A stretch of DNA of 25,136 bases, taken from positions 1 through 25,136 of IMG/VR virus record IMGVR_UViG_3300023174_000599. One strand, given 5' to 3'. The position numbers were made by a program, and so were the translations under genes. Under the pieces are notes generated by a model. The model did no database searches and was not told the origin of the DNA. It saw only the letters and a list, made by a program, of their open reading frames with translations. This document shows, piece by piece, positions 5,789-25,136 of this stretch (its first letter is position 1; each line of letters opens with the position of its first letter). Source of the stretch: a virus.

Positions 5789-8521
5789 ATGGGCGTCTTA
5801 GACGACATAGGAATTTTAAACAATAAGCAGCTTTCTAAAAGTGCTTTTTCTGGTTTTATTATAGACGTAAAAAAACGACTGAAAACAGGAAACGGAATAT
5901 TCAAATCTCCCGCGGTCGGTAAACAAGCAGACCCTATAGAAAATTCTGACCTCGCGAAGATAGAAGACCAGTTTTTATTTCCAGAGTTTCATAGAATCTG
6001 GAAAGAAAGATACACAAAAACTGTCCAACAGCTAAATCTCCCGGGAGCTTATCAAGCTGTTCCTAAAATTCCGCTAGCTCCCCTGATAGACCCTACGGCT
6101 TTGGCTAAAGTAATGGGCGTGAAAGACGCAAAGCCCGTTAAGTTTCCTGACATATTATTCGAGATACAAGGCCTCCCTCCCCCAGGAGCGCCTCCTGCGC
6201 CTCCTGCCACCATAAAAGATGTTTTAACTAATAATCTAGTAAAGACTGTGGAGTTTTTTGACCAATATTTAAAAGGGCTAAATCCGTTAGATCCTAAAAT
6301 AATAGAAAAACTAATAAACATAGTTAATAAAGCACCTGGTGCAATAGTTCCGCAACTACCCGATCCACGCGTACTAAAGCACGGATACACCCAACAACAC
6401 AATTTCGAAAAATCCATATATCTTGCACAAGAAAAAGCGCACTTGGAATTAATGGCCCGCTCCAAGGACCCAACATTTTTACCTAATTTAATTGCGCAAA
6501 TGGCATCGGGACAAAACGACATACTTCTTACAGAAGTGTATGCAATCGCCTCAAAACATCAACCTACCCCAATGTCGACTAGTGACTTTGAAATTGCAGC
6601 GCAAGAAGTACTTTTACAACATCAAGTAAAGCTAGAGTGCATCGCCCTATTAGGACAAAATATAGGCAGCGGTGAAATAATAAGGGCTCTCGCGGCTACT
6701 CCAGAAGATCAAGGCGGATTAGGTTTGCTAGACATGTCAAAGTCAAAAAGTGATCAAACTTCTGGCAACGAAAATCCTCAAGGAGCGACTACGGCAAGCG
6801 GTGGTTCTACGACGATATCGTCGACTACGACTCTTTCAGGTATGCCGGCTCAAACCGGCGGTAATGAAAATGTCAGTCAAAGTCCATTCGCGGCGAGCGG
6901 ACAACCTGTACAAGACGAAGCCCCACCAGGCGCTAGTGGAACCGGCGGGTCCAGTAGTCCTAGTTATGGAAGCGGATATGGCATGGGCGGAGAAACGCCA
7001 GCCGACGAATATCCTCCGCCGCCTGGTGCTAGTCCCGGTGGCTCTGCACAACAGCCCTCTGGGTTTGGCTTTGGTGGACCATCTGACGAAGTACCTCCTG
7101 GGGGTAGTCAAGGACAGGGATCTTTAGGATCCGGACCCCAGGGAAGCGGTGGCCCCGCGGGGCAGCAAGGTTCTCCTTTTGGATTTGAGGCTCCTCCTGA
7201 TGAAGTGCCACCGCCTGGTGCACAAGGTGGCGGAGGTAATGCTCAATCTAACGTTTCTCCGTGGGCCGGACCTCCCGCCGACGATTATCCCAATCAAGGC
7301 AACCAAGGTCAGGCTACACCACCAGGTTGGGGTGGCGCGCCTCCTGATGAAGGGTCTCAACAACAAGAACCTCCCAAAATACCTCAAGATAGTCCCGAGG
7401 GTGGAGAAACGATGGGCACAGAAAATCCGACTGATCCACAAGGAGACCCAGACGTGCCCATCGACCCGCCACCGAATACTACTTCTAAGGACATGAATAT
7501 TCCCGAAGGTATAGGAAATTCTTATTCCTCCGGTGATGATGATGACAATGAAGGCGACGGCGGTTCCTCGGGAAGCAGCAAAAAAGGATTTAAAAATACG
7601 AGTGTTAGAAGAAGAATAAAAGACCTCATCGAGGGAGGCAAAACATGCGTTGGTGGTTGCTTGGGTCCTGCCCCCGATTTTGCAAAAATGCCCATGCCAG
7701 GAGGAGGGTCGGGAGGTTTTATTCAAGAGACTTTCAGGGGTTTTACAGGTAGCGACGCCTCCGTCCACCCCGCGTGGGCAAAGGTGATAGATGGCGCTGG
7801 TACCACCATTGGTGGTGGATTCTCGAGTGTGGCCGGAATTAAGGATGTAATGGGAAAAGCTAATCCGGATAACCCAATTCAACCCGTCGCGACGTCTTGT
7901 GGTCAATTATCTAGTTGGCTCATAAGAAATGTAATCATGCCTACTTCGCGGGCAAATGGTGCATCGGTATCGATTCCTTGGGACAAGCAAGTAGCTGATG
8001 AGAATTTTAAAAAATCAGGTATAACAAAAGGCGCAGAAACAGCTTACAAAACCAAAGACTCAATAGGCGGTACAGGTTTTGAATTTGCGTATACAGCGGC
8101 GGCACTTGGAGCGTGGGTTAGCCTAGATAATTCTAATGTAACTGATCCGTTGAAGGCTCCCGCGCCGAGTTATGGAGACGTTTATTTAACGATAGACGGT
8201 GAAAACAACGTTCGCCACACTGGCATAATAATAGATTGGCGCCCGTCAGAAGGGTGGTGGGCTACAGCGGACGCGGGACAAGGAAATATGGGCGCCGCCG
8301 CGGGAGACCCGGCTAAGGCTTCACAAGGCATGGCATATTGCAAAAGAGTTTTAAAATTTGATGGTACCAAATATTTGGTCACGGCTGAAGCCGCGCAAGC
8401 TGCATCTGGTCAATTGAAGCGTTTTCACGGATACGTAAATATGGATATTTATGTAAAAAAATTCAAAACTGATTATAGCGGTGTTTGGGATAAGATTGGA
8501 ATACCCGACTGGTGTAAGTAA
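5789..8521 (+). CDS. Tail-associated Cys-His peptidoglycan hydrolase-like protein with repeat linker
   Basis: This 910-aa protein has three parts. Residues 1-317 are a mostly helical N-terminal region with a Pro-rich patch (LPPPGAPPAPPAT), likely the virion docking part. Residues about 318-605 are a low-complexity Gly/Ser/Pro/Gln linker with recurring P-x-D-E-x-P-P-P-G-A units, ending in an acidic DDDDNEGD stretch and a basic VRRRIKDLIEGG stretch. The C-terminal domain, about 690-910, fits the CHAP/NlpC-P60 papain-like fold: Cys704 in TSCGQLSSWL starts a helix, His810 lies in VRHTGIIIDW on a beta strand after GDVYLTIDG, and D828 in ATADAG could be the third polar residue. Such domains cut peptide or amide bonds in peptidoglycan. 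Location between hub-like and gp25-like genes suggests local wall digestion during DNA injection. A Cys pair (CVGGC, about 628-632) could form a disulfide. The catalytic triad is my assignment from motifs. Confidence 0.65.
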   Translation: MGVLDDIGILNNKQLSKSAFSGFIIDVKKRLKTGNGIFKSPAVGKQADPIENSDLAKIEDQFLFPEFHRIWKERYTKTVQQLNLPGAYQAVPKIPLAPLIDPTALAKVMGVKDAKPVKFPDILFEIQGLPPPGAPPAPPATIKDVLTNNLVKTVEFFDQYLKGLNPLDPKIIEKLINIVNKAPGAIVPQLPDPRVLKHGYTQQHNFEKSIYLAQEKAHLELMARSKDPTFLPNLIAQMASGQNDILLTEVYAIASKHQPTPMSTSDFEIAAQEVLLQHQVKLECIALLGQNIGSGEIIRALAATPEDQGGLGLLDMSKSKSDQTSGNENPQGATTASGGSTTISSTTTLSGMPAQTGGNENVSQSPFAASGQPVQDEAPPGASGTGGSSSPSYGSGYGMGGETPADEYPPPPGASPGGSAQQPSGFGFGGPSDEVPPGGSQGQGSLGSGPQGSGGPAGQQGSPFGFEAPPDEVPPPGAQGGGGNAQSNVSPWAGPPADDYPNQGNQGQATPPGWGGAPPDEGSQQQEPPKIPQDSPEGGETMGTENPTDPQGDPDVPIDPPPNTTSKDMNIPEGIGNSYSSGDDDDNEGDGGSSGSSKKGFKNTSVRRRIKDLIEGGKTCVGGCLGPAPDFAKMPMPGGGSGGFIQETFRGFTGSDASVHPAWAKVIDGAGTTIGGGFSSVAGIKDVMGKANPDNPIQPVATSCGQLSSWLIRNVIMPTSRANGASVSIPWDKQVADENFKKSGITKGAETAYKTKDSIGGTGFEFAYTAAALGAWVSLDNSNVTDPLKAPAPSYGDVYLTIDGENNVRHTGIIIDWRPSEGWWATADAGQGNMGAAAGDPAKASQGMAYCKRVLKFDGTKYLVTAEAAQAASGQLKRFHGYVNMDIYVKKFKTDYSGVWDKIGIPDWCK
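6914..7356 (+). repeat. Imperfect ~27-residue Pro/Asp-Glu repeats in the hydrolase linker
   Basis: Six degenerate units centred on a [DE]-x-P-P-P-G-A core begin near 6914 (DEAPPGAS), 6999 (ADEYPPPPGAS), 7082 (SDEVPPGGS), 7195 (PDEVPPPGAQ), 7276 (ADDYPNQG) and 7342 (PDEGSQQQ). Spacings are about 85, 83, 113, 81 and 66 bases. Each core is usually preceded by an aromatic/Gly segment such as GFGFGGP, PFGFEAP or SPWAGPP. The period and conserved acidic-proline core indicate repeated duplication of a flexible linker or short binding module. Confidence 0.75.
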
Positions 8522-12428: not shown

Positions 12429-15400
12429 ATGATTAGAAAAAAGAACTACATACAAGCGCCATCGTTTATTAAAGCTGCGTTAACCGAGACTAGACCAGTA
12501 CAGCTAACGTTTCGAGACCTATTAAACACGAACATAGAAAGTACTTCGTCTTTTCAATACGACCCGCTGGATTATCCTGTAAAAAGCACGCAACAACTCA
12601 ACGTTGATTGGTCAAAATTCGAAGAACACACATTCTTCCAGTCTGCCGAAGTAAAAACCAATGTCGCTTTTGATCAGATCGTCAATGGATTTCCATTCGA
12701 CGGTACAAGAATTGATGTTGAAAGATTTTTTGAAAAATTAACAGGCTATGAAAAGTGGGTATATGATCAATTCCCAAGATTCGCTGGACAGCTACATTTT
12801 TCGGGCACGCAGGTAGGAGAAGATCCCTTTAACGGTTTTGCTTCGGGATTAGGAACGCGCGTCGAAGTTAAAGACTCTGCGGGATGGTTGTTCCCAGACA
12901 TATCTAAGAACGATACGGGCGAGCCCATATTGAATCCACCCGCCAATAAGTCGTTCACAATTGAAACCCATATATTCGTCCCGAATCAAGGCAACGATGG
13001 ACAAGTTGTTTTTCAAAAGTTATCACCTGATAAAAGTCAAGGTTTCACTTTTTACTTAGAACCCTCAACGAACGCGTACGCAACAGGTACTTTCTGCATA
13101 GTTTCCGGTAGCGTTAACAACTTTGTAGACTGCAGCTTCCGCAAGGGAGAATTTAATCATCTTTGTGTATCCTTGAATCGAGAAGTAGGCGACAATTATC
13201 TGCAAGTTTTTGTTAACGAGCGCCTACAAAATGAAAGTAAAAAACAAAAAGTTATTGGCGAATTTATCGACACGTCTTCTTTAGTTATCGGTTCGGGATC
13301 TTCTTTTTACGTCGATGGTGTATATACGACGCCACAACAAACCTTCAGCGGTACCCTTGACGAATTTAGAATATTCCATGCCTATAGGTCTATTCAACAA
13401 CAAAGAAACTATTCCTCTAAGGGTCTATATTCGACAGATTCTTTAAAACTGTATTTTAGATTTAATGAACCATCGTCGTCCTTATCTTCTAATCCTAACG
13501 ATCTTGTTAATGCCATAGTCTTGGACAGCTCGGGAAATTCTCTGCATGGACTTATACAAAATTTCGATAACTCTTTGCGACAATCGGCGATAGACGACCC
13601 GTTAAGTTCAATGACCGCAGAGAGACCCGAATTCACAGTAGTGTTATTTCCCTATAATCCCGATGTCGTCTCGTTAAATACGAGATTATTGTCTTCGGCC
13701 AGTATATACGATCAGGTTAACCCAAACTTGATCACAAAATTAATTCCACGACACTATCTTCGAGAAGGTGGAGAAGAAGAAGGGCTAAAGCGCGACGAGA
13801 TAGAGGGAACGATCGGCGAGGCTTATGGCGGAGAAGGTATACCGGGACAAGGACAGCTAGGTTCTACACAGATAATTTTAACTTTTCTCTATATCTGGGC
13901 TAAGTTCTTCGATGACATAAAAATGTTCGTCGACGCATTCGGTACGTTAAACACGGTAGACTATGCGCTCCCGAACACCATGCCAGATAATTTTTTAAAT
14001 AACTTTGCTAATTCCTATGGTCTATTTCTACCGTCGTTCTTTAACGATGCTAGCATACTCCAGTACGTCGATGGCGAGGACATCAGCGAAAGTGGTTTGT
14101 CGACGTACACCTTAAAACAAATACAGTCTAATTTATTAAGACGTGTCTTGGTAAACATACCCGATATCTTGAAATCTAAGGGTACACAACACGGTATTAG
14201 GTCTTACTTAAGGTCAGTTGGAATAGACCCAGATAACAGCGTACGAATTAGAGAATTCGGCGGACCTTCTTTAAATCAATTTGGAACGAGCAGAGAAACA
14301 AGAACCGAATACTCATCGGCAGTAGATTTCCAAACGGCTTCAATCGTCACAACGTCGTTTCTTTCGGCTTCGAGAGTGGAGCCTGGATTCCCTGACGTCA
14401 TCGGTCCATTTAGCGAAGGAATATCGACGAATAAAAATGATGGTCTATTGACATCTGGTTCCTGGACATATGAAGGATGTTATCGATATACCGCAGAAAA
14501 TTTGGCGAAATTTGATGGCGAGTATCAATCACTAGTCAGATTCGAAACGACGGGGTCGGCGACAACTGCCCAACCAGGAATTATTCTTAACCTCGTTGCG
14601 TCAAGTTCTTTGATGGCCTATATTCGACCTGGCATGTCGGCGACTTCGCCAGCGCTACAGTTGATGTTGCCCATTAACGTGTTCGATGGCGAAAAATGGA
14701 ATATATCTGTAGGTTGTTATCGTAATGACTCTATAAAGAGTGCAGTATCGTCTTCCTACTTCTTAAGAGCTGCAACACAAAATAACGGAGATATTTCGAG
14801 GATATACACGACGTCTTCATTCTTTTATGAGACTCCCTCGGGAGAAAATAACGCGTTTAGAATATTGTCGGCAGCCAACAACGCGTCGGGATCTAGAATC
14901 GCGATAGGAAAAAACAACAACATCCCAGAAGGTGGCATGGGCTATCTGTATCTCAATAGTACGCTGGATACGCCAGACATCGCTAGAGAAACTCAATGCG
15001 TCGGTCAAGTTAGTAACATTCGTTTTTGGTCTAAGGGTTTGACGGAATCTGAGTGGAGAGAGCATGTTAGAAACCCCAAGTCTGTTGGCGTCGAAGACGC
15101 GTTAACAAACTACAATTACGTAACCTCTAAAACAGGTTCATTCGAGAAATTAAGATTAAGCACTTTAGAAAAGCAGACGGCTAGAACGGCTTCATTGTCT
15201 GGAGAAATAGTGTTTAATGATTTTAGCGAAAATGGTGTCAGAGTCTTCGGGTCGCAATTCCCCGCCAGCCAGCAGGTTTTCATAGGTGACATTTATGGTT
15301 ATAGTTATTTATCGCCATATTTCGATGAATATTCTTCTACTGAAAAAATTCGAATTAGGGGATTCAAAGAATTCGAATATTTGAGCGACGCACCATACGC

Positions 15401-15878
15401 CACGATAGGACCAGCTTACGAACTTCCGCCTGGCGAGACTCCTCAAGATGACGTCAGGTTCTCAATAGAGTTTTCACTATTAGATTCTCTGAACAAGGAC
15501 ATCGTCAACATGTTTGCAACGCATGATGTTCTGTCGACAGCCATAGGTTCGCCCGAGTTGATGTTTTCCCCAGATTATCCAGATTTAGAGAAATTGCGGG
15601 ACATTTATTTTAATCGTCTAAAAGATAAAATGAATTTTAGAAACTTTTTCGAATTCTATAGATGGTTCGATTTATCGATGGGTAATTTCATAGAACAGCT
15701 TGTTCCGAGAAAAACTAGATTCAAAGGAATGAATTTCGTAATAGAATCTCACGTGCTCGAACGTCACAAGATGGAATACAAGTCAAATGAAATTTATCTA
15801 GGAGACTCCGGTTTGCGTAGTCGTCTTAGAGATGTTCTGCTGAGCCAACAGATCGTGGGAAATATAAATAGATTTTAA
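12429..15878 (+). CDS. Large baseplate wedge-like protein with two LamG-like modules
   Basis: This 1149-aa protein is near the size of T4 gp7 (1032 aa) and sits close behind gp6, as gp7 does in T4. Residues about 1-130 form an N-terminal region. A LamG/concanavalin-like jelly roll spans about 170-325 (KSFTIETHIFVPNQGNDGQV ... SGTLDEFRIFHAYRSIQQ), the typical beta-sandwich with a final D-E-F-R strand. The central part (about 430-610) has a helical segment FLYIWAKFFDDIKMFVDAFG and DILKSKGTQHGIRSYLRSVG, a motif seen in tail proteins of the gpI/gp7 type (from memory). A second LamG-like module is at about 670-890, ending VSNIRFWSKGLTESEWREHV. The C-terminus (about 1050-1140) has FIEQLVPRKTRFKGMNFVIE. 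The LamG modules may bind glycans or protein partners. A gp7-like role is inference from order and size. Ribosome site before ATG is weak. Confidence 0.65.
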   Translation: MIRKKNYIQAPSFIKAALTETRPVQLTFRDLLNTNIESTSSFQYDPLDYPVKSTQQLNVDWSKFEEHTFFQSAEVKTNVAFDQIVNGFPFDGTRIDVERFFEKLTGYEKWVYDQFPRFAGQLHFSGTQVGEDPFNGFASGLGTRVEVKDSAGWLFPDISKNDTGEPILNPPANKSFTIETHIFVPNQGNDGQVVFQKLSPDKSQGFTFYLEPSTNAYATGTFCIVSGSVNNFVDCSFRKGEFNHLCVSLNREVGDNYLQVFVNERLQNESKKQKVIGEFIDTSSLVIGSGSSFYVDGVYTTPQQTFSGTLDEFRIFHAYRSIQQQRNYSSKGLYSTDSLKLYFRFNEPSSSLSSNPNDLVNAIVLDSSGNSLHGLIQNFDNSLRQSAIDDPLSSMTAERPEFTVVLFPYNPDVVSLNTRLLSSASIYDQVNPNLITKLIPRHYLREGGEEEGLKRDEIEGTIGEAYGGEGIPGQGQLGSTQIILTFLYIWAKFFDDIKMFVDAFGTLNTVDYALPNTMPDNFLNNFANSYGLFLPSFFNDASILQYVDGEDISESGLSTYTLKQIQSNLLRRVLVNIPDILKSKGTQHGIRSYLRSVGIDPDNSVRIREFGGPSLNQFGTSRETRTEYSSAVDFQTASIVTTSFLSASRVEPGFPDVIGPFSEGISTNKNDGLLTSGSWTYEGCYRYTAENLAKFDGEYQSLVRFETTGSATTAQPGIILNLVASSSLMAYIRPGMSATSPALQLMLPINVFDGEKWNISVGCYRNDSIKSAVSSSYFLRAATQNNGDISRIYTTSSFFYETPSGENNAFRILSAANNASGSRIAIGKNNNIPEGGMGYLYLNSTLDTPDIARETQCVGQVSNIRFWSKGLTESEWREHVRNPKSVGVEDALTNYNYVTSKTGSFEKLRLSTLEKQTARTASLSGEIVFNDFSENGVRVFGSQFPASQQVFIGDIYGYSYLSPYFDEYSSTEKIRIRGFKEFEYLSDAPYATIGPAYELPPGETPQDDVRFSIEFSLLDSLNKDIVNMFATHDVLSTAIGSPELMFSPDYPDLEKLRDIYFNRLKDKMNFRNFFEFYRWFDLSMGNFIEQLVPRKTRFKGMNFVIESHVLERHKMEYKSNEIYLGDSGLRSRLRDVLLSQQIVGNINRF
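15863..15870 (+). promoter_or_regulatory. Exact T4-type late promoter -10 element, TATAAATA
   Basis: TATAAATA, the consensus -10 of T4 late promoters recognised by gp55 sigma, lies in the end of the 1149-aa gene, 23 bases before the ATG at 15894. A start of transcription about 6 bases downstream would leave a short leader with a GGAAT ribosome site. I saw no second exact copy on the + strand by eye and one on the - strand inside the fibre gene, so chance is a real alternative in this AT-rich sequence. Confidence 0.35.
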
Positions 15879-21420: not shown

Positions 21421-24400
21421 ATGTCTAATAATCCGACGGTCGCAAAAATTGGAGAGTCTGGTCTCGTCTTCGCGAAAGACAAAACGACGAATCAAGTCAC
21501 CACCATCGCCACGACGGCCGACATGCAAATAGGTTTGCCCAATCAGTCTGCCAACCTATCCTTGACCGGCGCGATCGGTCTAAGCACTTTAGACATAACA
21601 ATAGCGGAAGGCTCCACGCGGAGCATTCCCGATTCGCTAACTAGCATAAACGTTACGACTACAGGAGCTTCTGGAACAGCGACGCTCCGTCTCCCCGCGG
21701 CTCCAAAAAAAGGTCAACTCGTCTATATCAAGGATGCAGGTGGAAACGCAGGAACAGTATCAATTACTGTAGTCGGTTCTCCCGAAGGAACGAAAACCAA
21801 CAAAGGTACGACATCGCACCTAATCGACGGAAGTACCTCGAAGACGATAACGGCGAATTATGGAATATTGCAGCTATTGTGGAATAGCTCAAGTTGGTCG
21901 GTAATATCTAGCACGGCGTCGAGTGCCCCACTCGACGCTTCCTATGTTGTCATCGGTTCTAACGCTACGTTGACGAACGAAAGGATACTCACCGCTGGGT
22001 CAGGTATTTCTATAGTAGACGGTGGAGCAGGAGCTGCTGTTACAATATCAGCTACGGGAGGAGGTTCAGGCGACGTAGTTGGACCAGCATCATCTACCGA
22101 TAACGCTATTGCTAGATTTGATCTAACAACTGGCAAGCTAATACAAAACTCAGGCGTAACAATAAGCGATTCAAATGATATTATAACCCCAGGGGACGTA
22201 GCTATTAACGGTGGGGATTTAACGTCCACCGCTACCACGTTTAATTTATTAAATTCTACTGTAACAACCCTTAATGTTGGGGGTGCAGCGACTACGGTCA
22301 CCGTGGGGGCATCTACGGCAGATGTCGTAGTTGGTCGTGCTGAAATCGGTGCTTGGCCAGCAGGAACAAGTTATGCCTTTTTTGGAAATAGCGATTACAA
22401 TCATTCTGTTGCGGGAAATTACGCGTTAATTCAAGCTTCATCTGCCGGCACAAAAAACACGTGGTTAAATGCCCCAACCGGCGGAAAAGTTTACATAGCT
22501 AATAATGATGCTGCGCTAGGTTATCTAGACGATAACGAAATTTCCTTAACAGGAAAAGCCAGCACAACCCAGACAGTAACCCTGGGATCAACGTATGGGG
22601 CGTCTTCGTTAACATTAAATGCCGGAACAGGTAACATCGGCATAGAAACATATAATGGATTATCAACGATAAGCATCGGTACTGTTAACCAGCCAAGAAC
22701 GATCGAGATTGGAACTGCTTCGACTCAAGCACAAACAGTTAACATCGCGACGGGTGGAGCTACCAACGATATAAACATCGGCAATTACGTTGCTGGCACT
22801 AATACCACAATTGCTGGTGATGGTGTTCAAGTCTACACTAACGGCGGAACAATTGCAATTGACAGTTCAGGCACGGGTGGAACAGTTAACATAGACGCCT
22901 TCGGGTACAACAGCTCTGTTAATGTAGGGACCGGCCCCGCTATCAAAACAGTGACTGTTGGTTCGACTACGTCCACATCCACGACGACAATTCAAGGAGG
23001 ATCCTCGGGAGTATCTGTAAATTCCAGCAATGGAAATATTGTCCTAAATCCCACCGCTGTAAATGGAACGATCTACCTAAGAAACAACGGTAGCGATCTG
23101 GCTACGTTCTCTTATAACAACGTTTTAGGAAATACTTTTTCTAACATCTACTTGACTGGAAAAAGCGGAGACGATACCTTCGTAGATATAGGAAGTTCAT
23201 ACGGCTCATCGAATGTAAACATATACGCTGGTACCGGTGGAATACTTTTGTCTGGATCCACCACGATTATTTCATCATCACTTGATGTTGCATATTATTC
23301 TTTCTCTCGTGCAGATGCAAGATTAGGAAATGCAGAAGTTGGTTCTTGGCCTTGGGGTAATTTCAATGACTATGCATCTCATTTTGCGATGTTTGGTAAT
23401 GAAGCGTTAGATCACTCTATCATAAGCAATTATGCACTTCTACAAGACAAATTAGGATACACTTACCTGAACGCAGCTTCAGGAAAATCTTTACACCTAC
23501 GTTCTAATAACACAGATTATGCTGCGATTAATCCCACGGAGGGTGGTTCTCCAACTGACAAAGTCGTTATTTATAAAGTTCTTTCAGCGTCAGGCGGAAC
23601 TACAACATATACAGACGCTGTCTTGGGCAATGCGTCTATAGGATCTTGGCCCGGTTACGAAGGCGGAGCGTTCAAAGAATGGTATGCAATCTTCGGTCAT
23701 AAGACGTTAGATCATACTACGACGACGTTAAAAGCAGGATTAGCTCAGTTATATACAGGCGATACGTGGCTAAATTCGCCAGCTGGAAACAAGGTTTATC
23801 TTTCGAATAATGGTAACACAATAGGATACTTCGATGACAACGAAATATCTTTAACCGGTAAAGCTAACGTAGATCAAACGATAACGTTGGGTAGCAACTA
23901 TGGCGGATCTTACACAAGAATAGATGGCGGATTTCTTGGGGTTTTTATTTCTGGTTCCCTAATAACCCTAACAGGCTCTTCTGCAAATGCAAGCCTCTCC
24001 GCCGACGCAAGGATCGGCTCTGTAGAAATTGGAGGCCTTCCCGGATACGGAAATTCTGTGGCCATGTTTGGTCACACAGATTTAAATCATGCCTATAACA
24101 ACGATACCTCAGCGGGTATGGGAAATTATGCTCTAGGACAATCTAACGACGGGTCTACATACATAAACTCTCCTCAAAATAAAGGAATTTATTTCCTCAC
24201 TTCAGGCGCTTCAGGATTACCCCTTGGAAGAATCTACTTTAAGACTTCTACGTTAAGCTCTGAATTAATTTTAACAGGCGCGTCATATTTCAACTCGAAC
24301 GTCTTTCTAGGTAGTTCTTACGGTCAAAGCAGCACATCGATTTATGCAGGAACAGGCGGAATCATTCTATCAGGTTCCGGAGCATCAACAATAATAACTG

Positions 24401-25136
24401 GTTCTACTTCTACCCAAGCTGACGCATATATCGGTTCAGTTGAAGTCGGCACACATCCTTTCTGGGGTAGAAATTACGCCATGTTCAGCCACAAGGACAT
24501 GGATAACAGCGTAGATGGAAACGCAGCACTAATCCAGGCATACGATGGAGATACATTCTTAGGCGCAAAATCTACAAAATCGATATTCATAAAAAACGGA
24601 ACATCATTCATCGGCAAATTTGATAACGATAACATTGAACTGACAGGAGATACATCTACTTCAACTGCAACAATATTGGGAAATTCCTATGGATTGTCTT
24701 CTACAAAAATGTATGCAGGTTTGTTTGGAATAACACTTTCAGGATCTGCGACGACAACAATTACAGGATCTTCCAGCACAAACGCAGAAGCCTACATCGG
24801 AACAGCTGAAGTCGGAGAATTGCCCTATACTAGAACTAGCTTTCCAAACTATTTTGCCATGTTTGGGCATAAAACGTTAGATCATTCTTCTAATGGAAAC
24901 TACGCTCTTGTACAGTCTTACGACGGCGATACGTTCTTAAATTCTGCTAATTCAAAATCAATCTATCTTCAAAATGCAGGAAACCTAATTGGGACATTAG
25001 ATAATGATAACATATCTTTAACAGGACAAGCTAACACTTCTGTCGCAACAGAAATTGGAAGCGTTTATGGTCTGTCTTCCACAACCATCAAAGGCGGATT
25101 ATTTGGTCTAATCCTAACAGGTTCGGGAACGACCAT
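21421..25136 (+). CDS. Repeat-rich tail fibre protein, 3'-truncated at window edge
   Basis: An ATG one base after the previous stop, with AGGAA about 8 bases upstream, opens a frame read here for 1238 codons with no stop up to the window end. The N-terminus (MSNNPTVAKIGESGLVFAKD ... ATLRLPAAPKKGQLVYIKDA) looks like a virion-attachment and small beta domain. Residues about 215-245 (GDVVGPASSTDNAIARFDLT, then KLIQNSGVTISDS) are a segment common in phage tail fibres. The shaft at about 270-300 and 410-545 has short T-x-N-I/V-G strand repeats, likely a trimeric beta structure. From about residue 300 onward the protein is built of recurring modules of about 105-140 residues with the core AMFGHKTLDHS and ISLTGKAN. 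Codon choice differs between N-terminal and distal parts. Function: host recognition. The true C-terminus, possibly with a self-cleaving chaperone domain, is outside the window. Confidence 0.88.
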   Translation, partial: MSNNPTVAKIGESGLVFAKDKTTNQVTTIATTADMQIGLPNQSANLSLTGAIGLSTLDITIAEGSTRSIPDSLTSINVTTTGASGTATLRLPAAPKKGQLVYIKDAGGNAGTVSITVVGSPEGTKTNKGTTSHLIDGSTSKTITANYGILQLLWNSSSWSVISSTASSAPLDASYVVIGSNATLTNERILTAGSGISIVDGGAGAAVTISATGGGSGDVVGPASSTDNAIARFDLTTGKLIQNSGVTISDSNDIITPGDVAINGGDLTSTATTFNLLNSTVTTLNVGGAATTVTVGASTADVVVGRAEIGAWPAGTSYAFFGNSDYNHSVAGNYALIQASSAGTKNTWLNAPTGGKVYIANNDAALGYLDDNEISLTGKASTTQTVTLGSTYGASSLTLNAGTGNIGIETYNGLSTISIGTVNQPRTIEIGTASTQAQTVNIATGGATNDINIGNYVAGTNTTIAGDGVQVYTNGGTIAIDSSGTGGTVNIDAFGYNSSVNVGTGPAIKTVTVGSTTSTSTTTIQGGSSGVSVNSSNGNIVLNPTAVNGTIYLRNNGSDLATFSYNNVLGNTFSNIYLTGKSGDDTFVDIGSSYGSSNVNIYAGTGGILLSGSTTIISSSLDVAYYSFSRADARLGNAEVGSWPWGNFNDYASHFAMFGNEALDHSIISNYALLQDKLGYTYLNAASGKSLHLRSNNTDYAAINPTEGGSPTDKVVIYKVLSASGGTTTYTDAVLGNASIGSWPGYEGGAFKEWYAIFGHKTLDHTTTTLKAGLAQLYTGDTWLNSPAGNKVYLSNNGNTIGYFDDNEISLTGKANVDQTITLGSNYGGSYTRIDGGFLGVFISGSLITLTGSSANASLSADARIGSVEIGGLPGYGNSVAMFGHTDLNHAYNNDTSAGMGNYALGQSNDGSTYINSPQNKGIYFLTSGASGLPLGRIYFKTSTLSSELILTGASYFNSNVFLGSSYGQSSTSIYAGTGGIILSGSGASTIITGSTSTQADAYIGSVEVGTHPFWGRNYAMFSHKDMDNSVDGNAALIQAYDGDTFLGAKSTKSIFIKNGTSFIGKFDNDNIELTGDTSTSTATILGNSYGLSSTKMYAGLFGITLSGSATTTITGSSSTNAEAYIGTAEVGELPYTRTSFPNYFAMFGHKTLDHSSNGNYALVQSYDGDTFLNSANSKSIYLQNAGNLIGTLDNDNISLTGQANTSVATEIGSVYGLSSTTIKGGLFGLILTGSGTT
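22324..25136 (+). repeat. Tandem ~105-140-residue modules of the tail fibre
   Basis: At least six modules are seen: about 22324-22650, 23308-23622, 23623-24000, 24001-24417, 24418-24783 and 24784 to the edge, plus a partial one at 23060-23280. Typical order in a unit: IGxxEVGxWP, then YAMFGHKxLDHS, NYALxQ, DGDTxLNSxxxKSIYL, NNGNxIGxxDDNEISLTGKA, LGSxYGxSST, YAGTGGIxLSGS and a TTTITGSSS linker. Later units (24418 on) are closest to each other. Divergence is high between others, so the duplication is old or selected for variation. Confidence 0.85.
22645..23050 (+). repeat. Short beta-strand repeats interrupting the fibre modules
   Basis: Between the first full module and the partial one, the protein switches to short T-x-x-I/V-x-I/V-G units, for example TISIGTVN, TIEIGTAS, TVNIATGG, DINIGNY, SVNVGTG and TVTVGSTT, each about 11-20 residues apart. 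This is the pattern of a beta-solenoid or triple-beta shaft segment. It carries no charged core and is almost entirely Thr, Ser, Gly, Asn, Ile and Val. Confidence 0.7.

Follow-up and report, generated by a model that had tools for sequence, protein, structure and literature searches.

A repeated fibre module shared among uncultured phages of divergent backbones

The stretch of DNA analyzed herein (the window) is the entire IMG/VR record IMGVR_UViG_3300023174_000599, 25,136 bp in length, and its last gene is a fibre open reading frame on the plus strand (21421-25134) that starts at 21421 and is still open at the contig end, leaving 1238 residues visible. Upstream, in the same tail/baseplate cluster, lies a gene for a Gp6-like baseplate wedge (PHROG 6, E 1e-14), the product of which matches over its full length proteins of Flavobacterium phage immuto, Microcystis phage Mel-JY01, and a 484-kb uncultured phage; this full-length relationship makes it probable that the phage is a large myovirus. 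The first-pass annotation had described the last gene as encoding a tail fibre of long modules, a reading upheld by the baseplate and tail gene neighbours and by the C1q or S74 ends of full-length relatives. The parts of the fibre protein are collected in Table 1.

Table 1. Parts of the fibre protein in order of their window coordinates, with the basis of each assignment.
Feature	Coordinates	Strand	Basis
N-terminal anchor domain, aa 1-172	21421..21936	+	homology to syntenic proteins
Linker (SYVVIGSNATLTNER..GDVVGPASSTDNAIARFDLTTGKLIQNSGV..), exchange anchor	21937..22314	+	DNA identity to L015, L002, and L004 starts exactly at 21937
M1, core and second half	22315..22653	+	profile E 6e-48; 21937-22632 is 98.9% identical to L015
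Beta-helix-like repeat spacer (..SIGTVNQPRTIEIGTASTQAQTVNIATGG..)	22654..23022	+	sequence inspection; 22633-23214 missing in L015
Orphan second half (YLTGKSGDDTF..YGSSNVNIYAGTGG), without the FGHxxLDH core	23023..23280	+	profile E 6e-15, model positions 42-120
M2, core only, without second half	23305..23610	+	profile E 5e-33; seven-strand core in model
M3, second half contains the L002 junction at 23872	23611..23997	+	profile E 5e-55; model
M4, 7-residue insertion after LNHA	23998..24417	+	profile E 2e-47; 100% DNA identity to L002 at 23917-24419
M5	24418..24783	+	profile E 8e-58; mean pLDDT 83 over M5+M6
M6, cut by the contig end	24784..25134	+	profile E 2e-53

Six full-core modules of approximately 100-140 residues each, together with one core-less second half, are contained within 22315-25134, which bears out the earlier claim of at least six related copies. 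Rescoring with a six-module profile returned every module at E values between 5e-33 and 8e-58 (6e-15 for the core-less half), and pairwise scores among the six modules ranged from 104 to 318, as against 89 or less in shuffled controls (200 shuffles per pair). The alternative that generic Gly/Ser/Thr composition alone produces the apparent repeat, raised at the same time as the claim, is thereby ruled out, the modules having beaten all shuffles. A tandem array at the DNA level, or slippage, is likewise rejected, as exact direct repeats of at least 15 nt are absent from 21421-25136; the copies are so diverged in their DNA that none remains, and the array is therefore old. The core follows the consensus [AT]DAxIGxAEVGxxP-loop-YAMFGHKxLDHSxxGNYALxQxxxGDTxLNSxxxKSIYLxNNG and the second half the consensus DDNEISLTGKA..LGSxYGxSSTxIYAGTGGIxLSGSxTTTITGSS, with columns G6, G11, P14, A25, F27, A41, L42, Q44, T50, and G81 (M6 numbering) invariant in all six modules. 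The uniform order of sub-motifs proposed earlier holds in general, although M2, the one module of six without a second half, lacks DDNEISLTGKA...YGxSST, and M1 and M4 carry extra insertions; similarly, the FGHKxLDH core is present but looser than was claimed, with FGN, FSH, DNS, and NHA variants.

Structure prediction with AlphaFold2 was carried out on monomers of M5+M6 (modelled from a 22-sequence alignment) and M2+M3, yielding mean pLDDT values of 83 and 76, respectively, and a pTM of approximately 0.5. The four modules so modelled share a single order of seven predicted strands (strand-strand-[loop]-strand-strand-strand-strand-strand), with the length-variable loop falling between strands 2 and 3 in each, whereas the second half is mostly coil, as would be expected if it needs partners in order to fold. 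The proposal that the module is a folding unit of a trimer thus stands as far as a repeated folding unit is concerned, the trimer itself being putative. In Foldseek searches against the PDB, the first 8-11 matches for both models were chains of the T4 proximal long tail fibre protein gp34, followed by the R2 pyocin spike, with none reaching significance for either model (best E 0.12 and 0.15). A fold search of BFVD gave nine matches at E<1e-3, including G8DHD1, R4THH8, R4TF36, R4TVM2, and G8DDY9; some of these presumably belong to algal large DNA viruses and are taken as a lead only. By sequence, the module has no family match in Pfam, PHROGs, or PDB sequences.

The core is present in about 20 uncultured viral contigs identified by IMG/VR scans (designated by L numbers), at one to five copies each. 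Tandem modules occur in L002/L003 (five), L005 (four), L010 and L016/L017 (three), and L009, L011, and L013/L014 (two each), and single modules are found in the very different fibres of L018, L028, L029, L031-L033, L035, and L038. A C1q domain (PF00386), scoring above the Pfam curated cut-off, ends the complete tandem fibres L002, L005, L009, and L010; in L002, two further modules, then beta-helix-like repeats and the C1q head, come after the counterpart of M6. The single module of L018 is instead followed by S74, the intramolecular-chaperone domain of other fibres (PF13884), which appears neither in the window nor in its tandem-module relatives. In the stretch of the window protein that is visible, Pfam returned no C1q match, the contig ending before the C-terminus. 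No module match was obtained by tblastn in 50,697 named phage records, nor were cellular relatives of the module found in a pattern scan of 84,980 genomes. Two side observations concern these relatives: L014:4456-9702, which by backbone is the nearest of the complete fibres, bears a different, unassigned C-terminal domain (..GAIWVCNINGNLENGDYITTCEIPGYG..) without a C1q match, and the fibre ORF of L031-L033 has, ahead of its single module, a collagen-like repeat of GTSGSSGTSGSSG that is near-uniform over about 430 residues (PF01391, E 1e-59 in L032).

The N-terminal domain shares 27-65% amino acid identity with the first ~165 residues of the syntenic protein in L039/L040, L042-L054, and L058 and is kept in about 15 records, among them phages without any detected module; on the strength of this conservation, it is most likely the conserved end that attaches the fibre to the tail. 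Within the linker lies the one segment of the fibre with matches in the named-phage search, the motif GDVVGPASSTDNAIARFD (window 21937-22176; Mycobacterium phage Boilgate, Rhodobacter phage RcKemmy), which may serve widely as a connector in fibres and an anchor for recombination.

Judged by the tail genes beside the fibre, the window groups with L041 (71-97% amino acid identity) and L039/L040 (56-85%), the same proteins being only 27-49% identical to those of the L002 group and 29-49% to those of L015/L046. In the fibre gene, nonetheless, the DNA of the window matches that of L002 at 98.4% over 23872-25136, with zero mismatches across ~500 bp (23917-24419), and aligns with L015 at 98.4% over 23215-23404 as well as over the block through M1 (98.9%); L015 lacks the intervening stretch, such that its M1 is joined to M2. 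The linker is also found in L002 and L004, and its left boundary at 21937 is common to three backbones (the window, L002/L004, and L015), upstream of which no DNA alignment to L015, L002, or L004 is obtained. As near-identical blocks sit beside distantly related tail genes, modules appear to have been passed between phages. Closely related pairs differ in a corresponding manner: L009 and L010 share a 99% identical backbone, yet their fibres, of 660 and 896 residues, are set apart by the gain or loss of a single module with its spacer, the join lying in the second half and both contigs extending beyond it on either side; L002 and L005 match at 96.6% as far as the anchor domain, after which their series of modules differ; and L038 has a module inside its homologue of the fibre gene L002:11269-12024, which is itself without one. 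Taken with the blocks shared with L002 and L015, these differences indicate that exchange acts on modules and linker. The breakpoints, of which a small number were seen, fall mostly in the linker or second half. A further tail-cluster protein of 1149 residues with a Laminin-G-3/ConA-like domain (window 12429-15878; PF13385, E 1.8e-8) is, unlike the fibre, strongly kept in backbone relatives (39-97% amino acid identity).

The near-identity to L002 could also arise from a chimeric assembly in which the 3' end of the contig derives from another co-occurring phage and was joined inside the fibre, and it does extend to the contig end; L004, L013, L015, L016, and L017 are contigs that stop inside the fibre as well. 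This explanation is nevertheless quite improbable, given that a second block (21937-22632), internal to the contig and with unique sequence to its left and right, is shared with a third backbone (L015), that the linker recurs in L002 and L004, that identity is 98-99% rather than 100%, that the fibre holds no exact repeat of at least 15 nt to mislead assembly, and that the module difference between L009 and L010 lies in contigs extending both ways. The junction at 23872 itself is represented by the window contig, since no second IMG/VR contig has the pattern across it. Still further from likely, to the point of being scarcely tenable, is a diversity-generating retroelement as the driver of fibre variation: C-terminal variability and the C1q tips of relatives would suit such an element, but no reverse transcriptase (PF00078) was detected in 14 fragmentary records, including contigs of 90-284 kb, in which controls were detected, and the changes are block-wise with synonymous differences instead of adenine-directed point changes.

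The loop between EVGxxP and YAMFGH had been proposed in the first-pass annotation to be a variable receptor loop. Its length does differ between copies (4, 10, 10, 5, 5, and 9 residues from M1 to M6), over a measured range of 4-10 residues in place of the ~3-11 claimed, and is fixed by module type as judged from sequence. Were selection driven by receptors to act on the loop, it should be the first place at which orthologous modules diverge. This is not the case, for across 14 orthologous module pairs the loops are 93.3% identical (84/90), the cores 92.9% (925/996), and the second halves 91.6% (554/605), a comparison in which the pairs are non-independent and the loop is short enough that weak effects could be missed. 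The receptor-loop claim is accordingly not sustained. A broader version of it, wherein the modules act as multivalent lateral adhesins that bind receptors or glycans from along the shaft, this loop being their recognition surface, gains something from the variation of loop length by module type, from the position of the loop between two predicted strands, and from the fact that close relatives differ precisely in module content. It is considered unlikely, however, as the loops vary no more than the core, no lectin or carbohydrate-binding family is matched in Pfam or PHROGs, tips with known binding folds exist separately, and the shared blocks differ little: the window/L002 block contains 14 synonymous and 6 nonsynonymous codon differences (approximately two thirds synonymous), and with differences so few and mostly synonymous, there is no sign of diversifying selection. 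What varies between phages, on the sequences compared, is module presence and order, plus the C-terminal tip.

The explanation that is favoured, and regarded as fairly probable, is that the modules are interchangeable "knob plus helix" shaft cassettes of a gp34-like trimeric fibre, exchanged by recombination, with recognition probably situated at the C-terminal tip. The conserved N-terminal domain, the variable series of modules, their exchange, gain, and loss, and the C1q or S74 ends of relatives are established from the sequences; the trimer, beta-prism, and beta-helix are drawn from analogy, and the tip as receptor binder and homologous recombination as the route are inferred. On this reading, the phage is large and myovirus-like and the protein is its long fibre, in which the N-terminal domain, found at a fixed syntenic place and followed by the linker and the variable modules, would hold the fibre on the tail. 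Each module would comprise a compact beta core (~70 residues, seven predicted strands, containing YAMFGHKxLDH), usually succeeded by a Gly/Ser/Thr-rich stretch that may form a triple-beta-helix shaft, and in the trimer the cores would build triangular beta-prism "knobs" with short triple-beta-helix segments between them. Module number would then set shaft length and knob pattern, and host recognition would most likely reside in the C-terminal tip beyond the window end (a C1q head in four complete relatives and a different, unassigned tip in L014). Modules, linker, and tip would be exchanged, gained, and lost by recombination, mostly within the second half or linker, leaving the attachment end undisturbed while the fibre is remodelled.

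The model for this arrangement is gp34 (PDB 4UXG/5NXF/5NXH), a trimeric triple beta-helix punctuated by antiparallel beta-sheet triangular domains (PMC5537660). Like the present fibre, gp34 is long and carries repeats with a loop of differing length; its shaft is interrupted by the sheet domains P3-P5, and it is the leading, albeit non-significant, fold neighbour of both models. It differs in lacking sequence similarity to the module fibre and in that its repeats are alpha-beta units of another kind, whereas in the module fibre it is the beta unit that recurs and is swapped; the fibre may be similar to gp34 in its working but is not classed in the gp34 family. Domain mosaicism of receptor-binding proteins, including that of metaviromic islands, also features a conserved N-terminus, shuffled downstream domains, and high identity across distant phages, and its variable recognition genes include ones for C1q proteins (Smug et al., 2023, PMC10684548; Mizuno et al., 2014, PMC3909814). 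In the present case, the exchanged pieces include tandem internal shaft modules that are 98-100% identical across backbones whose tail proteins are ~30% identical. Fibres with a C1q head (PF00386), such as the tail protein of jumbo cyanophage S-B05 (PMC7824862), share this head with L002, L005, L009, and L010, although the module itself is unrelated to C1q and the window stops short of the C-terminus.

Fibre mosaicism is usually described as the swapping of receptor-binding tips. The sharing of internal shaft modules between phages with distantly related tail proteins, and the existence of strains with 99% identical backbones that stand one module apart, make it possible to ask whether natural selection acts on the length of the shaft and its pattern of knobs as well as on the tip. 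More tentatively, large environmental phages with divergent backbones may pass around an undescribed family of fibre modules as exchangeable cassettes, such that recombination in the conserved second half and in a dedicated linker alters the length of the shaft and the pattern of its knobs independently of the receptor-binding tip. As far as the searches show, neither this family of sequences nor the swapping of modules internal to the shaft has been catalogued, although systems of the kind are known. A profile of the module would also annotate fibres currently labelled hypothetical.

Elsewhere in the window, a protein of 910 residues (5789-8521) has a long Gly/Pro/Ser-rich middle and a C-terminus that on visual inspection looks like a cell-wall hydrolase, with no match for the protein in Pfam or PHROGs. 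Two adjacent group-1 glycosyltransferases (382-1632 and 1634-2812; PF00534, PHROG 2170), which could modify virion or host glycans, are encoded close to the baseplate cluster and a late-sigma-like gene.
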